From Alphaproteobacteria bacterium (GTDB lineage Bacteria > Pseudomonadota > Alphaproteobacteria > ATCC43930 > CGMCC-115725), in assembly GCA_028871055.1 (NCBI GenBank), contig JAGWON010000001.1:124001-188000 (forward strand): a stretch of 64,000 bases of DNA, given 5' to 3'. Position 1 is the first letter of the stretch. Every line of letters begins with the position of its first letter. The notes below the pieces were generated by a model, which searched no databases, was not told where the DNA came from, and saw only the letters and a list, made by a program, of their open reading frames with translations. The translations under genes and the position numbers were made by a program. Positions 47,341 through 57,601 of the stretch are shown here, in pieces.

Positions 47341-47455
47341 GGGTGCTAGATAGGCTTACCCCCGCAAAAGGGCAAGGTGGCGGTTGTGCGGCCCGGTGAT
47401 CCATGGTAGCGAGCCGCACGATGGCGAACGGCCAATCAAGCAGGCGGAGCTGACG

Positions 47456-47956
47456 ATGGCGGACAAGGAAAACGGCGCGGACGCAACCGCCGCCGGCACG
47501 ACCGGCGAGGCCGAGCCGCGCCGCTCGCTGATCGTCAATGCGCAGTACATCAAGGACCTGTCGTTCGAGAATCCGCGCGCGCCGGCCAGCCTGATGCAGC
47601 CGCAGGCGCCCGAGCTCCAGGTCAACGTCGACGTCGGCGCCGGCACGCTCGGCAACGATCGCTACGAGGTGGTGCTCACCATCCACGCGCGCGCCACCGC
47701 CAAGGGCGAGACGCTGTTCGTGGTCGAGCTCGCCTATGGCGCGACGGTGACGCTGACCAACATGCGGCAGGAGGACGTGCCGCAGGCGCTGCTGGTCGAG
47801 ACGCCGCGGCTGCTGTTCCCGTTCGCGCGCGGCATCGTCGCCGACGTGACGCGCGACGGCGGCTTCCCGCCGGTGTTCATGCAGCCGATCGACTTCAACG
47901 AGCTGCTGCGACGCCAGACCGCGGCGCAGGCGCAAGCGCCCGCCGCCAACGCCTGA
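47456..47956 (+). CDS. secB: Protein-export chaperone SecB
   Basis: 166 residues from the ATG at 47456; upstream in-frame codons look non-coding. Family segments: NAQYIKDLSFENPRAP, LQVNVDVGAGTLG, YEVVLTIHARA and LFPFARGIVADVTRDGGFPP. Keeps preproteins unfolded for SecA. Its downstream side is the start of the repeat pile. Confidence 0.95.
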   Translation: MADKENGADATAAGTTGEAEPRRSLIVNAQYIKDLSFENPRAPASLMQPQAPELQVNVDVGAGTLGNDRYEVVLTIHARATAKGETLFVVELAYGATVTLTNMRQEDVPQALLVETPRLLFPFARGIVADVTRDGGFPPVFMQPIDFNELLRRQTAAQAQAPAANA

Positions 47957-48341: not shown

Positions 48342-49283
48342 ATGGCCAAGCCCGTTTTGTCTGATCCGATCTTTCACAACGAAGAAGTGGCGTTCGCCTA
48401 CGTCGAGCGGCACCTGTGGCCGGAAGGCCCGGTTTGCCCCTTCTGTGGCGCGCCGCATGAGAAGATTGGCACCGTTCCATCCGGTCGCACCGGCCTCCGC
48501 AAGTGCTACGGCTGCCGTAAGACCTTCACGGTGCGGCATGGCTCGATCTTCGAGGACAGCCATTTCCCGCTGCACCTGTGGCTCCAAGCGATCCATCTGC
48601 TATCGAGCAGCAAGAAGGGTATTTCCACGCGCCAGCTACAGCGTACGTTCCAATGCAGCATGAAAACCGCGTGGTTCCTGACGCACCGTATCCGCGAGAT
48701 CATGAAGCGTGGTGATGGCCTGCCGCCGCTTGGCGACGAGAACAAATTCCTTGAGGCAGACGAAACATTCGTGGGTCGGAAGCCGGGCACCAAGGTCGGA
48801 CGCGGTCACGGCCACATGAACGCCGTCCTGGCGCTGGTGGAGCGTGACGGGAGGGCCCGCTCGTTCCATGTGCCTGACGTGAAGGCCGCGACCCTCGCGG
48901 ACGTGATCGCGCGTCACGCCGACCCGCTGTCGCACTTCCGCACCGACGAGTTGCCCGGCTACGCGGGCGTCGGCAAGCGTTTCACCACCCATCGCAGGGT
49001 GCGCCACTCCCTCAACGAGTATGTGAAGGGCAACGCTCACACCAACACCGTCGAGGGTTTCTTCTCGATCCTGAAACGCGGTGTCTACGGCACCTACCAG
49101 CACATCAGCGAGGCACACCTGCATCGCTATTTGAGCGAATTTGATTTTCGATATTCCAACCGCGAAGCGCTCGGCGTTGATGATGTTGAACGCGCCAGCA
49201 TTGCACTACGCGGTGCGAAGGGTCGGCAACTCACTTACGGGACAGTTGGTCGCGGACGGCGAGCGGAAGCGTGGCCGACCTAG
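48342..49283 (+). CDS. IS1595-family transposase
   Basis: 313 residues. N-terminal zinc ribbon (CPFCGAPHEKI, CYGCRKTF), then an ISXO2/IS1595 DDE domain: FLEADETFVGRKPG, FRTDELPGYAGVGK and HTNTVEGFFSILKRGVYG, ending FDFRYSNREALGV. All acidic catalytic positions look intact, so the protein may be active. The last 15 residues differ from the usual ending; another frame runs on to 49368 with a basic sequence, so a late frameshift is possible. Confidence 0.93.
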   Translation: MAKPVLSDPIFHNEEVAFAYVERHLWPEGPVCPFCGAPHEKIGTVPSGRTGLRKCYGCRKTFTVRHGSIFEDSHFPLHLWLQAIHLLSSSKKGISTRQLQRTFQCSMKTAWFLTHRIREIMKRGDGLPPLGDENKFLEADETFVGRKPGTKVGRGHGHMNAVLALVERDGRARSFHVPDVKAATLADVIARHADPLSHFRTDELPGYAGVGKRFTTHRRVRHSLNEYVKGNAHTNTVEGFFSILKRGVYGTYQHISEAHLHRYLSEFDFRYSNREALGVDDVERASIALRGAKGRQLTYGTVGRGRRAEAWPT

Positions 49284-49531
49284 CCGATACCGCAAACGGC
49301 ATTGGCGCGGCCCAGAACCCGGCGACCCGCGCCAACTGAAGCTTCCGTTTGGCAAACTACGGCGCTGAACAGGAAGCGCTGGGCAAAACTAGGATTGTGG
49401 GGAGAAATCTGGGGCGGCTCACTTAAGACGTTGACCCCCCCGATGGAGGACTCCATACTAGTTATGGGCCAATTCGCTGTACGAAAAAAGAACAGCGTCT
49501 ACATATAGTTATCAGGGGAAGAGGAAGTTCC

Positions 49532-49834
49532 ATGGCAAGCTTCGCTGCAGGCGATTCGGTACAGATTCCGTGCGAAGTGCAGGTGGGTGCTTTCCCTACC
49601 GAATGTCTTATTACGTTTGAAACGCTTGAAGGGCGAGTTTCTGGATTCGTGCGTCGAGAAGCCCTGAGGGACATTTCTGGATCAAAGGGTTTTCTTCCTG
49701 CTACGGTTGTAGACGTGAAGAAGGATACAATTACAGTAAGAGTACAGGGTTCTTTTTTCACCACGACTGGATTGGCTTATCTGAAGCGCGATTGGGCGGA
49801 CTCGAACGTGCGCCCGTTAAGAGCGGTGGCATAG
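49532..49834 (+). CDS. Unknown small beta-rich protein
   Basis: 100 residues, with GGGGAAGAGGAAG upstream as ribosome site. Predicted largely beta-strand with alternating hydrophobics (GDSVQIPCEVQVGAF, ATVVDVKKDTITVRVQGSFF), which could be an OB or SH3-like barrel. I do not recognise it. Lower GC and codon use than the chromosome around it suggest transfer. Probably co-transcribed with the dCTP-deaminase-like gene 37 nt downstream. Confidence 0.65.
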   Translation: MASFAAGDSVQIPCEVQVGAFPTECLITFETLEGRVSGFVRREALRDISGSKGFLPATVVDVKKDTITVRVQGSFFTTTGLAYLKRDWADSNVRPLRAVA

Positions 49835-49838
49835 GACT

Positions 49839-49866
49839 CTCCTAGCCGTCGCGTCGCGGCTAGGAG
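49839..49866 (+). promoter_or_regulatory. Hairpin that sequesters the next gene's ribosome site
   Basis: CTCCTAGCCG and CGGCTAGGAG form a perfect 10-bp stem with an 8-nt loop. The 3' arm contains most of the Shine-Dalgarno TAGGAGGGG of the gene starting TTG at 49872. No T-run follows, so it looks like a translational switch or coupling element rather than a terminator. Confidence 0.6.
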
Positions 49867-49871
49867 GGGCA

Positions 49872-50471
49872 TTGATACTTTCGCAGGTTGACCTACGGCG
49901 CGCGGCCAAAGCCGGTAAAATCGCATTCGATCCACCCCTTGAAGAACGTCAGTGGGGAGAAGCTTCGGTTGATCTGAGGCTAGGATTTAGCTTCACGAAA
50001 TTCATTCCGGTTCCGGGCGTCACCCTTGACGTTTCGCAAGGGCTGGAAGCGGTCGGACATTCGAATTTCTACCAAACGAAGATTCTGAAAGCCCAAGATG
50101 AACTCGGAGAACGGGAAAGTTTCGTTCTGCGCCCACATAATTTTGTTCTTGCGATGACATATGAGAGCATCAAGGTGCCGCTGAATATGATCGCCCTTGT
50201 AGAGGGGCGCAGTACGTATGCTCGCGTTGGTTTGAGCATGCATCAAACGGCACCATGGATTCAGCCCGGCTGGAGCGGTCAGATCATTTTGGAAATTATG
50301 AACAACGGCGAGCTCGATATAAAACTCACCCCTCTCGTCGATCGGCCCTGCCAAATTACATTTTTTGAACTTAAAACTGCGGTCCCCAAAAAGAAGGGGT
50401 ACGGCACTCGGTCAACAGACGCCTATCAAGATCAACAGCACCCACTTAGGCACGCGAAGACAAAGCGGTAA
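49872..50471 (+). CDS. dCTP deaminase/dUTPase-family protein
   Basis: 199 residues from a TTG with a strong AGGAGGGG site. Family features: ASVDLRLG, FVLRPHNFVLAMTYESI, VEGRSTYARVGLSMHQTAPW, GWSGQIILEIMNNG (with the catalytic Glu) and an ending AYQDQQHPLRH. The usual Asp in the (H/W)IDxG(W/F) segment is Gln (WIQPGW), so activity may be altered. Low-GC coding like its neighbour; likely acquired, as such enzymes are often phage or plasmid borne. Confidence 0.8.
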   Translation: MILSQVDLRRAAKAGKIAFDPPLEERQWGEASVDLRLGFSFTKFIPVPGVTLDVSQGLEAVGHSNFYQTKILKAQDELGERESFVLRPHNFVLAMTYESIKVPLNMIALVEGRSTYARVGLSMHQTAPWIQPGWSGQIILEIMNNGELDIKLTPLVDRPCQITFFELKTAVPKKKGYGTRSTDAYQDQQHPLRHAKTKR

Positions 50472-53765: not shown

Positions 53766-54364
53766 GCCTTGAGCACGCCGCTGTCGCGCAGGAATTCGAG
53801 CAGCGGCAGCAGCGGCAGGCCGAGGATGGCGAAATGATCGCCCGCGACCTCGGCCATCAGCTGGATGCCGCTGCCTTCGAGCCGATAAGCACCGACCGAG
53901 GCCAGCGCGGCGTCGCCGGCGGTGGCGAGATAGTCGTCGAGGAAGGCGTCGCTGAACGGCCGCATGGTCAGCGCCGGCTGCTCGAGCGCGTGCCAGATCG
54001 CGGCGCCGTTCTTGACCAGCGCCGCCGCCGTCGGCAGCACGTGGCGCTTGCCGCGCAGCGCCAGGAGCTGGGTCCGCGCCGCGTCGCGGTCGGCCGGCTT
54101 ATCGAACCATTGGCCGTCGCACACCAAGAGCTGATCGGCGCCGAGCACCAGCGCACCCGGCATCCGTGCGGCGACGCGCTTGGCCTTGGCTTCGGCGAGC
54201 GCCAGCGCGCAATCGCCGGCATTGCGGCCGTCGGCCTTGAACGCCGCCTTGAACGCCGCCTCGTCGAGCTGGGCGGGCTCGATCGTCGGCTTGAGGCCGG
54301 CGGCGTCGAGCAGGCGCGCCCGGGTCGCGCTCGCCGAGGCGAGCACCAGCTCGGGCGGGCTCAT
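53762..54364 (-). CDS. maf: Maf-like nucleoside triphosphate pyrophosphatase
   Basis: 200 residues from the ATG at 54364, sharing ATGA with ppsR. Motifs LVLASASATRARLLDAAGL and LVLGADQLLVCDGQWFDKP. Hydrolyses dTTP/UTP or modified nucleotides to monophosphates. Usual place between ppsR and aroE. Confidence 0.92.
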   Translation of the reverse strand: MSPPELVLASASATRARLLDAAGLKPTIEPAQLDEAAFKAAFKADGRNAGDCALALAEAKAKRVAARMPGALVLGADQLLVCDGQWFDKPADRDAARTQLLALRGKRHVLPTAAALVKNGAAIWHALEQPALTMRPFSDAFLDDYLATAGDAALASVGAYRLEGSGIQLMAEVAGDHFAILGLPLLPLLEFLRDSGVLKA

Positions 54365-55179
54365 GCTTCCTCGCCGCGGCGCCGCGCCAGCAGCTTGAGC
54401 ACCGCCGCCGCCGTCTCCTCGATCGAGCGGCGGGTGACGTCGATCACCGGCCATTGATGCTCGGTGAAGAGCCGCCGCGCCGTGGCGACCTCCTGACGCA
54501 CCGCGTCGATGTCGGTGTAGTCGGTGCGCTCGTCGTGCTTGAGCTGGGTCAGGCGGTTGCGCCGCACCTGGATCAGGCGCTCGGGGTCGTTGGTCAGGCC
54601 GACGACCAGCGGCCGGACCAGCGCGAACAGCTCGATCGGCGGCTCGGCGCCCGGCACCAGCGGCACGTTTGCCGCCTTGATGCCGCGATTGGCGAGATAG
54701 ATGCAGGTCGGCGTCTTCGACGTGCGCGACACGCCGACCAGGATGACGTCGGCCTCGCTCCAGCCCCAGGCCGATTGACCGTCGTCATGCGTGAGGGCGA
54801 AGGTCATGGCGTCGATGCGCTGGAAATATTCGCTGTCGAGCATGTGTTGCTGGCCGGGCAGGCCGCGACTCGGCCGGCTGAGATAAGCGCCAAGCGCACC
54901 GATCACCGGATCGAGCACCGGGATCACCGGCACCTGGAGCTTGCGACAACCGTCGACCAGCGGCGCGCGCAGGCTCTCGTCGACCAGGGTGTAGAGCACG
55001 ACGCCGGGATTGGCGGCGACGCCGCCGACCACGCGCTCGATCTGCGCTTTGGTCCGCACCATAGACCAGATGTGCTCGATCGCCTCGCTGTTCTCGAACT
55101 GCACGAGACAGGCGCGCGCTACCGAGTGAACCGTATCGCCGGTCGAATCCGAGACAAGATGGAGATGAAAGCGCGTCAT
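54361..55179 (-). CDS. ppsR: PEP synthase/PPDK regulatory kinase-phosphorylase (DUF299)
   Basis: 272 residues. DUF299: start FHLHLVSDSTGDTVHSVARA and P-loop-like VILVGVSRTSKTPTCIYLAN. Controls pyruvate phosphate dikinase or PEP synthase by ADP-dependent phosphorylation and Pi-dependent dephosphorylation. In Caulobacter and Rickettsia this gene and hemE flank the replication origin. Confidence 0.95.
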   Translation of the reverse strand: MTRFHLHLVSDSTGDTVHSVARACLVQFENSEAIEHIWSMVRTKAQIERVVGGVAANPGVVLYTLVDESLRAPLVDGCRKLQVPVIPVLDPVIGALGAYLSRPSRGLPGQQHMLDSEYFQRIDAMTFALTHDDGQSAWGWSEADVILVGVSRTSKTPTCIYLANRGIKAANVPLVPGAEPPIELFALVRPLVVGLTNDPERLIQVRRNRLTQLKHDERTDYTDIDAVRQEVATARRLFTEHQWPVIDVTRRSIEETAAAVLKLLARRRGEEA

Positions 55180-55568
55180 CGGTGCAAATCACGGGAATGA
55201 ATTGCCGCGCGCTCGATCGCGACTCGGCCATGCCGTCGATCATGCCCGCTGTACCGGTTTCGATGCACAACCTCGTTGCCTGCGGATAATTCGCCGCACC
55301 AGTCGGCGACCCGGGAGAAACAATCAGCGACGATCACGCTTTCCTTCCTTTCCTCCTTATTAGTATCGGCGTCATCAACAGGATCCGCGCTGCTCGGCGC
55401 TTCGGATTTCGCTGTTATGCAGCCGTTATACATGGTTTGTGACGCTGGCGAGGAAGACACGGTCGGTAGCTGAGGATGCTCTTATAACGTCTTTTAATCC
55501 CCGCGCCTCCACCCACCAACTACCTTCACAACCTTTAGATTCTAAGATGGAAAAGGTAAGAGCAAGGG
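55180..55568. other. Candidate chromosomal replication origin (ppsR-hemE gap)
   Basis: 389 bp without a convincing gene, less GC-rich than the flanks (notably 55340-55380 and 55480-55565). It lies between divergent DUF299 and hemE genes, where oriC is placed in Caulobacter, Rickettsia and some Rhizobiales. One near-consensus DnaA box TGCGGATAA (55281-55289, one mismatch to TGTGGATAA) is seen, with weaker ones such as ATGCACA at 55263. No CtrA-type TTAA-N7-TTAA site. Also holds both promoters. Evidence is mainly synteny. Confidence 0.5.
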
Positions 55569-56591
55569 ATGAACGAGCCTAAGCCATTGCTCGGCACCCT
55601 TTGCGGCAAGGTGATCGAGCCGCCGCCGTTGTGGCTGATGCGACAGGCTGGACGCTATCTGCCGGAATATCGCGCGTTACGACAAAAAGCGGGAAGTTTT
55701 CTCGAGCTGTGCCTGACGCCCGAATTCGCCACCGAAGCGACATTGCAACCGGTCCGTCGTTTTGGCTTCGACGGTGCGATCCTGTTCTCGGATATTTTGG
55801 TGATCGCGATGGCGCTCGGTCGCACGGTCGAGTTCCGAGACGGCGACGGTCCAAACCTGTTGCCGTTGAGCGATAAAACCGGTCTAACGGCGCAAGCCGA
55901 TGCGGAGACGCTAGCACCGGTCTACGAAGCGCTGCGCCGCGTCAAGGCAGCCTTGCCGGCGCGCACGACGCTGCTCGGCTTTGCCGGCGGACCATGGACA
56001 GTTGCCGCTTACATCATTGACGGTGGCGGCCGGACGCAATTTGCCAAGGCGCGGCAGTGGGCGGCGGAGAAACCCGATGTGCTCGATGGCGTCGTCGCGC
56101 GTCTCGCCGCGGCGACAGCCGATCACCTCGCGGCGCAGCTCGACGCCGGCGCCGAGGCGGTGCAGCTCTTCGACAGCTGGGCCGGACTGCTGGCACCGGA
56201 TCAGTTCCGGCGCTTCGTCATCGCGCCGACACGGCGGATCGTAGCGGCGCTCCATGCCCGCCATCCGCGGGCGCCAATCATCGGCTTTCCGCGCAACGCC
56301 GGCGCGCTTTACGGGGATTATTTCGTCGAAACCGGCGTCGACGCGCTGTGCCTCGATCCGAGCGTGCCGCTCGACCAGGCGCGCGCGTTGCAGGCCCACG
56401 GACCGGTCCAGGGCAATCTCGATCCGGCGCTGCTGCTGGCGGGCGGCGCGGCGCTTGACCGCGCCGTCGGCGACATCCTCGCGGCGCTGCACCGCCGGCC
56501 TTTCGTCTTCAACCTCGGCCATGGCATCCTGCCGGAAACCCCGCTCGAGCACGTCGAGCGGCTGGTGCAGTTGGTGCGCGGGGGGCTATGA
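55569..56591 (+). CDS. hemE: Uroporphyrinogen decarboxylase
   Basis: 340 residues. Signature PPLWLMRQAGRYLPEYR at the start and GFAGGPWTVAAYIIDGG in the middle. Converts uroporphyrinogen III to coproporphyrinogen III. Followed by hemH in an ATGA-type overlap, giving a hemE-hemH-hemJ operon. Confidence 0.97.
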   Translation: MNEPKPLLGTLCGKVIEPPPLWLMRQAGRYLPEYRALRQKAGSFLELCLTPEFATEATLQPVRRFGFDGAILFSDILVIAMALGRTVEFRDGDGPNLLPLSDKTGLTAQADAETLAPVYEALRRVKAALPARTTLLGFAGGPWTVAAYIIDGGGRTQFAKARQWAAEKPDVLDGVVARLAAATADHLAAQLDAGAEAVQLFDSWAGLLAPDQFRRFVIAPTRRIVAALHARHPRAPIIGFPRNAGALYGDYFVETGVDALCLDPSVPLDQARALQAHGPVQGNLDPALLLAGGAALDRAVGDILAALHRRPFVFNLGHGILPETPLEHVERLVQLVRGGL

Positions 56592-57601
56592 CGCGAACGG
56601 CGGTGGTGCTGTTCAACCTGGGCGGACCGGATTCCTCGGCCGCGGTCAAGCCGTTCCTCTTCAACCTGTTCTACGACCGCGCCATCATCGACCTGGCCAA
56701 TCCGCTGCGCTGGGCGCTGGCACGGATCATCGCCGGGCGGCGCGCGCCGGTGACGCGCCAGATCTACGCCCAGATCGGCAATGCCTCGCCGCTCCGGGCG
56801 AACACCAGGGCCCAGGCCGAAGCGTTGCGCGCCGCGCTCGGCGACGGCTATCGCGTGTTCATCGCCATGCGCTACTGGCATCCGCGCGCCGGCGCCACGG
56901 CGGCCGAGGTCAAGGCCTGGCAGCCGGATGAGATCGTGCTGTTGCCGCTCTATCCGCAATTCTCCGGCACCACGTCGGCATCGTCGATCGCCGACTGGCG
57001 CGCGGCCGCGGCCAGGATCGGGCTCAAGGCGAAGGAGCGCATAGCGTGCTGCTATCCGACCGGGCGCGGCTTCGTCGCTGCCCTGGCGCGCGGCGTCGCC
57101 GACGAGCTCGCGCGCGTGCCGGCGGGCGCGCAGGTGCGGGTGCTGCTGTCGGCGCACGGCTTGCCCTTGCGCGCACTGGCCCGCGGCGACCCCTATCAAT
57201 GGCAGATCGAGGCGACCGCGGCGGCGGTGCGTGCGGCGGTGGGGCAACCGGCGCTCGACATGCGCGTCTGCTATCAGAGCCGGGTCGGGCCGCTCAAATG
57301 GCTCAGTCCGTCGACCGAGCACGAGATCCGTCAGGCGGGTAGCGAGGGCGCCGGCGTGGTCGTCGTGCCGATCGCCTTCGTGTCGGAGCATTCGGAGACC
57401 CTGGTCGAACTCGATCGCGACTACCGCAAGCTGGCGCGCGAAGCGGGCGTGCCGTTCTATCGGCGGGCGCCGACCGTGGGCACGGCACCCGAGTTTATCG
57501 CCGGCCTCGCCGATCTGGTGCGCGCGGCGCCGCTTCCCGGCGCCGGCCGCCGCGCCTGTCCCGAGGGCTTCCGGCAATGTCCGGCGATGGCGGCGCCATG
57601 A
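56588..57601 (+). CDS. hemH: Ferrochelatase
   Basis: 337 residues. Catalytic His in LLSAHGLPL and Glu/His in AFVSEHSETLVELD. The C-terminus carries CPEGFRQCPA, reminiscent of the 2Fe-2S-binding cysteines in Caulobacter ferrochelatase, but other ligands are not obvious. Inserts iron into protoporphyrin IX. Confidence 0.95.
   Translation: MTRTAVVLFNLGGPDSSAAVKPFLFNLFYDRAIIDLANPLRWALARIIAGRRAPVTRQIYAQIGNASPLRANTRAQAEALRAALGDGYRVFIAMRYWHPRAGATAAEVKAWQPDEIVLLPLYPQFSGTTSASSIADWRAAAARIGLKAKERIACCYPTGRGFVAALARGVADELARVPAGAQVRVLLSAHGLPLRALARGDPYQWQIEATAAAVRAAVGQPALDMRVCYQSRVGPLKWLSPSTEHEIRQAGSEGAGVVVVPIAFVSEHSETLVELDRDYRKLAREAGVPFYRRAPTVGTAPEFIAGLADLVRAAPLPGAGRRACPEGFRQCPAMAAP

Follow-up and report, generated by a model that had tools for sequence, protein, structure and literature searches.

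We place the chromosomal replication origin (oriC) of this alphaproteobacterium, with high confidence, in a 389-bp intergenic gap between the divergently oriented genes ppsR and hemE, i.e., at a site of the hemE/COG1806 type. The gap lies in the window analysed here, a stretch of 64,000 nucleotides that corresponds to bases 124001-188000 of contig C19 (371,420 bp) in an assembly of 3.07 Mb and 33 contigs. An earlier note on this DNA had proposed an origin at exactly these coordinates, and the proposal is supported by synteny, by the positions of parS and dif, by skew change points in relatives and by a conserved architecture of DnaA boxes and W-boxes. The reading of the gap as an ordinary alphaproteobacterial hemE-type oriC, a class of site that is already known, is well supported. 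The origins of Caulobacter and Rickettsia, to which the earlier note had likened the gap, are indeed located between hemE and COG1806 according to PMC1914354.

Both boundary genes were confirmed by Pfam (Table 1), and all the neighbours that the earlier note had named were found. To the left of the gap Pfam identifies maf, aroE, coaE and an RNase_T/dnaQ-type exonuclease, with secB (47396-47956) farther left, and to the right ferrochelatase (hemH), a hemJ-type UPF0093 protein and rho. An insertion at 48342-50471, with an IS1595-type transposase (PF12762) and a dCTP-deaminase-like gene (PF22769), parts secB from dnaQ, and the DNA here is gene-poor and AT-richer to about 51490. The two genes are adjacent in four relatives (G001, G010, G012 and G037), and neither the deaminase-like gene nor a small ORF at 49532-49834 had a match in the stretches of these genomes that were searched; relatives of the transposase are present elsewhere on the G001 contig. 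The gap is AT-richer, as had also been stated, with a GC content of 0.548 compared to about 0.68 for the locus, and 1.8% of the 389-bp segments of the contig have a GC content as low. An Rfam search of window positions 54000-57000 gave no match.

Table 1. Coordinates of the putative origin, its boundary genes and the sites discussed in the text (window positions).
Feature	Position	Strand	Basis or remark
Putative oriC, ppsR/hemE gap	55180-55568	.	Synteny, gene strand, parS, composition
ppsR (Kinase-PPPase, DUF299/COG1806), left boundary gene	54361-55179	-	PF03618, E 7.7e-94
hemE (uroporphyrinogen decarboxylase), right boundary gene	55569-56591	+	PF01208, E 1.2e-109
Putative degenerate weak site, ppsR-proximal, CGGGAATGA on +	55192-55200	-	Lines up with TGGGGACAA-type sites in two sister genomes
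Near-consensus DnaA box TTATCCGCA	55281-55289	-	Same sequence and position in sister L013; altered in L014 (TGCGGATCG on +)
TTATGCAGC, two mismatches to TTATNCACA	55415-55423	+	TTATGC kept in three of three same-genus gaps
TTATACATG, two mismatches	55426-55434	+	Aligned with TTATACAC(G/T/C) boxes of L013, L015, L016, L019 and L021
CTGAGGATGC on +, eroded counterpart of CTGGGGATAG / CTGGGGACAG (W-box TCCCCA) of two sister gaps	55470-55479	-	Alignment
TTAATCCCCG, sole W-box-like TCCCC(A/G) site of the gap	55494-55503	+	Block ttaATCCCCg kept in family consensus
GCCTCCACC, putative weak second site of the hemE-proximal tandem	55505-55513	+	Four mismatches to TTATCCACA; placed by alignment; family consensus ..t.Cac..c
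CAACTACCTTCACAA, CTA-repeat tract resembling DnaA-trios	55517-55531	+	9/15 matches to (CTA)5; any trios would be on the opposite strand
AT-rich hemE-proximal stretch CAACCTTTAGATTCTAAGAT, candidate unwinding region	55529-55548	.	Same-genus alignment, composition

For the comparison with relatives, ppsR was found in 49 of the 61 genomes searched, the other 12 giving no match, and two ppsR-positive genomes (G024 and G059) are not in the locus set. Of 57 loci looked at, L001-L010 were dropped as duplicates of L012-L015, L017-L020, L022 and L070, which left 47. ppsR and hemE are divergent, with a gap of 321-724 bp, in 43 of these. The set of 43 gaps leaves aside L012 and L018, where the contig ends 39 and 462 bp from ppsR, and L076 and L077 (genomes G044 and G050), where hemE was not matched within about 1.9-2.2 kb of ppsR; in these last two genomes the neighbourhood of the origin seems to have been rearranged, or hemE to have moved. 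Thirty-five gaps (f1/f2, the window's own included) belong to two families of the window's order, its own and one more, and the remaining eight represent eight further families of the class. The ends of the gaps were set by protein alignment, and some gaps include a few dozen hemE bases. The 35 gaps are mutually related, and the site counts given for them below are not independent events.

If this genome is taken alone, the box and the AT content of the gap are unremarkable, and the box evidence is weak. The gap holds a single match to TTATNCACA with at most one mismatch, the one near-consensus DnaA box of the earlier note, and such boxes are scarce, as the note had also said: there are three in the whole window, compared to 7.5 in shuffled sequence (about 0.05 expected per 389 bp). 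At least one of them is found in eight of the 87 intergenic regions of the contig (minimum 150 bp, defined by our own gene prediction), the ppsR/hemE gap included. TCCGCA, the core of the box, is not enriched in the gaps of the family (12 against 10.1 in shuffles). The exact pattern TTATNCACA is absent from the gap in a genome-wide count, which gave nine occurrences against ten for the reversed control pattern. The ppsR-proximal site at 55192-55200 is no box match by itself, and an alignment of the three same-genus gaps points to it as a possible weak site. One match to the IHF consensus has one mismatch (55529-55541, minus strand), and four have at most two mismatches where 0.59 are expected. 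Neither a CtrA site (TTAA-N7-TTAA, both strands) nor a G-box (TGATCCACA) was found in the gap.

Across the 35 gaps of the order, DnaA boxes are enriched tenfold and W-boxes (TCCCCA/G) fourfold over shuffles. With at most one mismatch, 76 TTATNCACA boxes lie in 33 of the 35 gaps, while shuffled gaps hold 7.3 (the largest of 15 shuffles being 11); TCCCC(A/G) occurs 130 times and in every one of the 35 gaps (shuffles 30.2, largest 41). The same word is found 29 times in the gaps of the other families, in eight out of eight (shuffles 6.9, largest 14). TCCACA occurs 38 times in gaps compared to 6.0 in shuffles, and counts of the look-alike words TCGCCA, GCCCCA and TCCTCA in the gaps showed no enrichment over shuffles. 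A de novo motif search by expectation maximisation returned low-information motifs only, and word counts and alignment were used instead. Ranked among the intergenic regions of each of five contigs, the gap stands out less cleanly. By W-box-like sites, of which the window's gap has one, it ranks seventh of 87 regions on C19, second of 63 in G037, first of 78 in G010, fourth of 50 in G012 and third of 24 in G001; by DnaA boxes it ranks first on C19 (in a tie with seven others), in G037, in G012 (tied with two) and in G001, and second in G010.

Among the variants of TTATCCACA that differ by a single change, TTATCCCCA is the most frequent, with 11 occurrences in eight of the 35 gaps against 0.15. 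At gap position 31, one of the two same-genus loci L020 and L021 has TTATCCCCA and the other TTATCCACA, a naturally occurring exchange of A and C within a DnaA box, which suggests that one protein may read both forms. A literature search for TTATCCCCA together with DnaA found no report. An altered recognition helix of DnaA was rejected as the cause of the TTATCCCCA sites, since domain IV has the signature GGRDHTTV in the window's genome and three same-genus relatives, and likewise in the order-mate G037; we take this, from E. coli DnaA and also from the DnaA of other relatives, to be the usual form. A GGRDAT motif in the DnaA of the window's genus proved a false lead, as it sits in the AAA domain. 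What is fresh here is a set of weak DnaA sites that the relatives seem to have in common.

The most conserved part of the three same-genus gaps is the hemE-proximal block, for which the family consensus reads ttaATCCCCg, followed by a second CAC-type site and then by C.aCta.CcACcaCtaccttt. The CTA tract of the family gaps looks like DnaA-trios (consensus 3'-GAT-5', PMC8287927), with CCA in many places, and the alignment predicts such a trio-like tract in the window's gap. On the strand reading towards hemE, the mean best match to a (CTA)5 template is 9.80 of 15, where shuffles give 8.47 and at most 8.74 (40 shuffles), and on the opposite strand it is 8.29, with no excess; the match of the window's own tract is about chance, the significance lying at the level of the family and not in this sequence alone. 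We also re-coded the published rule for the basal unwinding system (BUS) as described in PMC8287927, i.e., a DnaA box (at most two mismatches), a spacer of 0-16 and at least three NAN trios. It found no match in the window's gap and selected eight of the 35 family gaps on the hemE strand and three on the other (shuffles, mean 2.4, largest 5). The gaps of L061 and L075 clearly show a DnaA-like box, then CTA/CCA repeats and then AT-rich DNA. The tree of the BUS survey marks classes of Proteobacteria, and trio predictions for Alphaproteobacteria may already be contained in that survey (PMC8287927).

The earlier note had described the flanking genes as running outward, and on C19, 58-59% of the coding bases on each side are directed away from the gap, the cumulative gene-strand minimum falling at its ppsR edge, one of 345 gene junctions. 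In four tiled relatives this minimum is found elsewhere, at 53 kb (G037), 197 kb (G010), 130 kb (G012) and 13 kb (G001) from the gap. Origins usually mark the lowest point of the cumulative GC skew, and it was from such a minimum that the earlier note had expected the proof. This expectation failed on C19, where the raw cumulative skew has its maximum, at 176,334, 2.8 kb from the gap. The codon-corrected GC skew is inverted as well and peaks 25 kb to the right of the gap, on the parS side; the firmness of the inversion varies with the test, gene-order shuffling giving a p of 0.001 (codon-corrected range) and circular shifts no significance, since 53 of 346 yield a left-right difference as large. 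At four-fold sites, outward genes are richer than inward ones in C over G and in T over A on both sides of the gap, and the minimum of the TA skew lies 21 kb to its right. Around the origin of C19, GC skew is wrong-signed (C-rich outward genes) and T-over-A skew normal-signed.

Skew was read contig by contig in this assembly of 33 contigs, rather than as one whole-genome curve. The inversion on C19 may be local or may extend through the genus. For the genus-wide case the sampled contigs C22, C23, C25 and C30 gave no clear support, being mixed in sign and mostly within error: GC and TA skew residuals are of equal sign in C23, C25 and C30 and opposite in two short pieces of C22, nearly all of them within about one or two standard errors. 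No clear turn of the skew was seen on C22 around dif. KOPS-like words were also rejected as markers of replication direction on C19, giving either no signal or the wrong direction: among the 13 tried, GGGNAGGG (14 of 26 diverging) shows no switch, and GGGCAG, the only word with a nominal result (99 of 236 diverging, p 0.016), is biased against the expected direction and tracks the local GC skew. GC skew is a poor judge of the origin in this genome, and the case for the origin therefore rests on comparison.

The codon-corrected (four-fold-site) GC skew, a method that resolves change points at gene ends only, has its minimum 198 bp from the gap centre in G010 (0 of 1000 gene-order shuffles as large) and 225 bp from it in G012 (p 0.003), both of the window's family, and 9.7 kb off the gap in G037 (p 0.026), a genome of the same order in one contig. 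TA-skew minima lie 2.7 kb (G010), 21 kb (G037) and 32 kb (G012) from the gap. In G037, the raw GC-skew minimum within the tile is 39 kb to the left of the gap. Sampled skew in this genome is positive in nine of ten stretches to the right, the tenth being -0.0002 (pooled +0.0215), and negative in eight of ten to the left (pooled -0.0231), and the sign flips across dif; its outward genes show a surplus of T over A on either side, and a surplus of G over C that is clear to the left and marginal to the right. In the same-genus relative G001, which has a short contig here, both skew measures miss significance (p 0.139 and 0.729), and the extreme of TA skew beside the gap is wrong-signed. A GC-skew minimum lying elsewhere had been named in the earlier note as the result that would speak against an origin at the gap. 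Formally C19 gives this result, to which we attach little weight. In the relatives skew favours the origin, the minimum coinciding with the gap or lying close to it in G010, G012 and G037.

A dif-like site (one mismatch to the consensus) is present once per genome in seven of eight genomes scanned, G052 being the one with none, and the reversed control gave 0. In the window's genome dif is not on C19 but on C22, and in G010 it is likewise on another contig than the gap. In the five relatives that have both on one contig, the distance from gap to dif, in % of the contig and with positions rounded by hand, is 48.5 (G037), 42.4 (G038), 48.8 (G039), 44.7 (G049) and 47.9 (G054), and the distance from dnaA to dif is 46.9, 46.2, 46.9, 41.1 and 42.8, respectively; the gap is thus nearer to the dif antipode than dnaA in four of the five, with the reverse in G038. 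Pairs or triplets of parS (scan with two mismatches allowed) lie on the hemE side, 8-21 kb from the gap, in all of the eight genomes scanned (G000, i.e., the window's own, G001, G010, G012, G037, G038, G039 and G054), with one further weak match elsewhere in G010 and in G012. Such a distance to one side is usual for origin-proximal centromeres. The gene dnaA is about 77 kb from the gap in G000, 93 kb in G010, 91 kb in G012 and 137-250 kb in the five relatives compared for dif.

The origin could instead lie elsewhere on C19, either at dnaA on the left of the gap or, 15-17 kb to its right, at the cluster of parS sites, with the gap being no more than a conserved divergent promoter region. We regard this as unlikely. 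dnaA does share the contig with the gap, and the skew change points of C19 are spread over tens of kb on the parS side (the TA minimum and the four-fold-site GC extreme), where the skew is compatible with a place near parAB; in addition, gene-strand minima are off the gap in four relatives, and in G038 dnaA is the closer of the two to the dif antipode. However, the 700 bp preceding the predicted start of dnaA contain no near-consensus DnaA box, and whereas dnaA drifts between 77 and 250 kb from the gap, the four-fold-site GC minimum of G010 and G012 remains with the gap. The antipode of dif favours the gap in the four other relatives, and it is at the ppsR-hemE gap that DnaA boxes and W-boxes are enriched.

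Even less probable is that the gap serves merely as divergent promoter and leader of ppsR and hemE and that the origin is on another contig, a reading we hold to be very unlikely. Divergent pairs need promoters, and both the conservation of the hemE-proximal block and the weak box evidence in this genome would agree with it, but promoter and origin functions can coexist in one gap, and a promoter would leave unexplained the enrichment of DnaA boxes and W-boxes in the gaps of ten families, as well as the skew switches of the relatives and the geometry of parS and dif. The switch at the gap might finally be read as a replication terminus, which is what a cumulative GC-skew maximum would usually mean and with which the convergence of GGGCAG on the gap would agree; this we consider hardly credible, as dif is on C22 and parS close to the gap, the genes run outward, on either side T-over-A skew is higher in the outward genes, and G010, G012 and G037 show the opposite GC sign.

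With the gap as origin, initiation could proceed as follows. DnaA would nucleate on its best one or two boxes, at 55281 and 55426, and, as the conservation in the family suggests, would spread cooperatively over weak TCCCC-type sites towards hemE as far as the tandem at 55494-55513. By analogy with BUS, the filament might then bind a single strand of the AT-richer tract with CTA repeats (55517-55548) and open the duplex there. Two forks would depart, one via hemE and one via ppsR, in keeping with the switches of gene strand and TA skew here and of GC skew in relatives, and ParB bound to parS, 15-17 kb beyond hemE, would segregate the new origins, judging from the position of these sites.

W-box arrays look general in hemE-type origins rather than special to Caulobacter. 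We tentatively go further, though with somewhat less than even confidence, and propose that arrays of weak W-boxes (TCCCCA/G) are ancestral and general in alphaproteobacterial hemE-type origins and terminate near hemE in a trio-like opening tract (CTA/CCA) with tolerance for a middle C, and that in the window's genus the stronger boxes are largely eroded, the origin being run almost wholly on weak sites. Titles and abstract beginnings of the papers listed on W-boxes with DnaA, Caulobacter or Alphaproteobacteria and on hemE-type Rhodospirillales origins contained no report of W-boxes outside Caulobacter. If W-boxes are general, weak cooperative DnaA sites would represent an old design and nothing peculiar to the dimorphic life of Caulobacter. 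Several independent lines place an origin in a family represented here mainly by metagenome assemblies, and in genomes of this kind comparison resolves what GC skew leaves undecided.

Among known systems, BUS (Bacillus subtilis and others) shares with the family gaps tandem DnaA-like sites, a short spacer, CTA repeats (3'-GAT-5' on the other strand) and an AT-rich neighbour (PMC8287927); the gaps differ in their many CCA repeats, which lack the conserved adenine in the middle of the trio, and in that the window's gap escapes the published search rule. The origins of Rickettsia prowazekii and other Rickettsia have the same boundary genes and a similar size (383-396 bp), in genomes described as AT-rich (PMC1914354), whereas the gap here has a GC content of 0.55. 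CtrA and IHF sites have been described for R. prowazekii, which is mentioned as a possible exception regarding CtrA sites (PMC4468827), and the gap here lacks CtrA sites. A further close likeness is with Cori of Caulobacter crescentus, the activity of which has been shown in vivo, while the gap is known from its sequence. Unlike Cori, it has neither the TTAA-N7-TTAA CtrA site nor the G-box, which a review gives as TGATCCACA (PMC4285127), its one box (TTATCCGCA) is of a different type, and it has a single W-box-like site. Both are located between hemE and COG1806/DUF299 and measure about 0.4 kb (404 bp in Cori, PMC1914354), and both are AT-richer than their genome and combine a few better with several weak DnaA sites and the W-box, TCCCCA in Caulobacter (PMC4285127).
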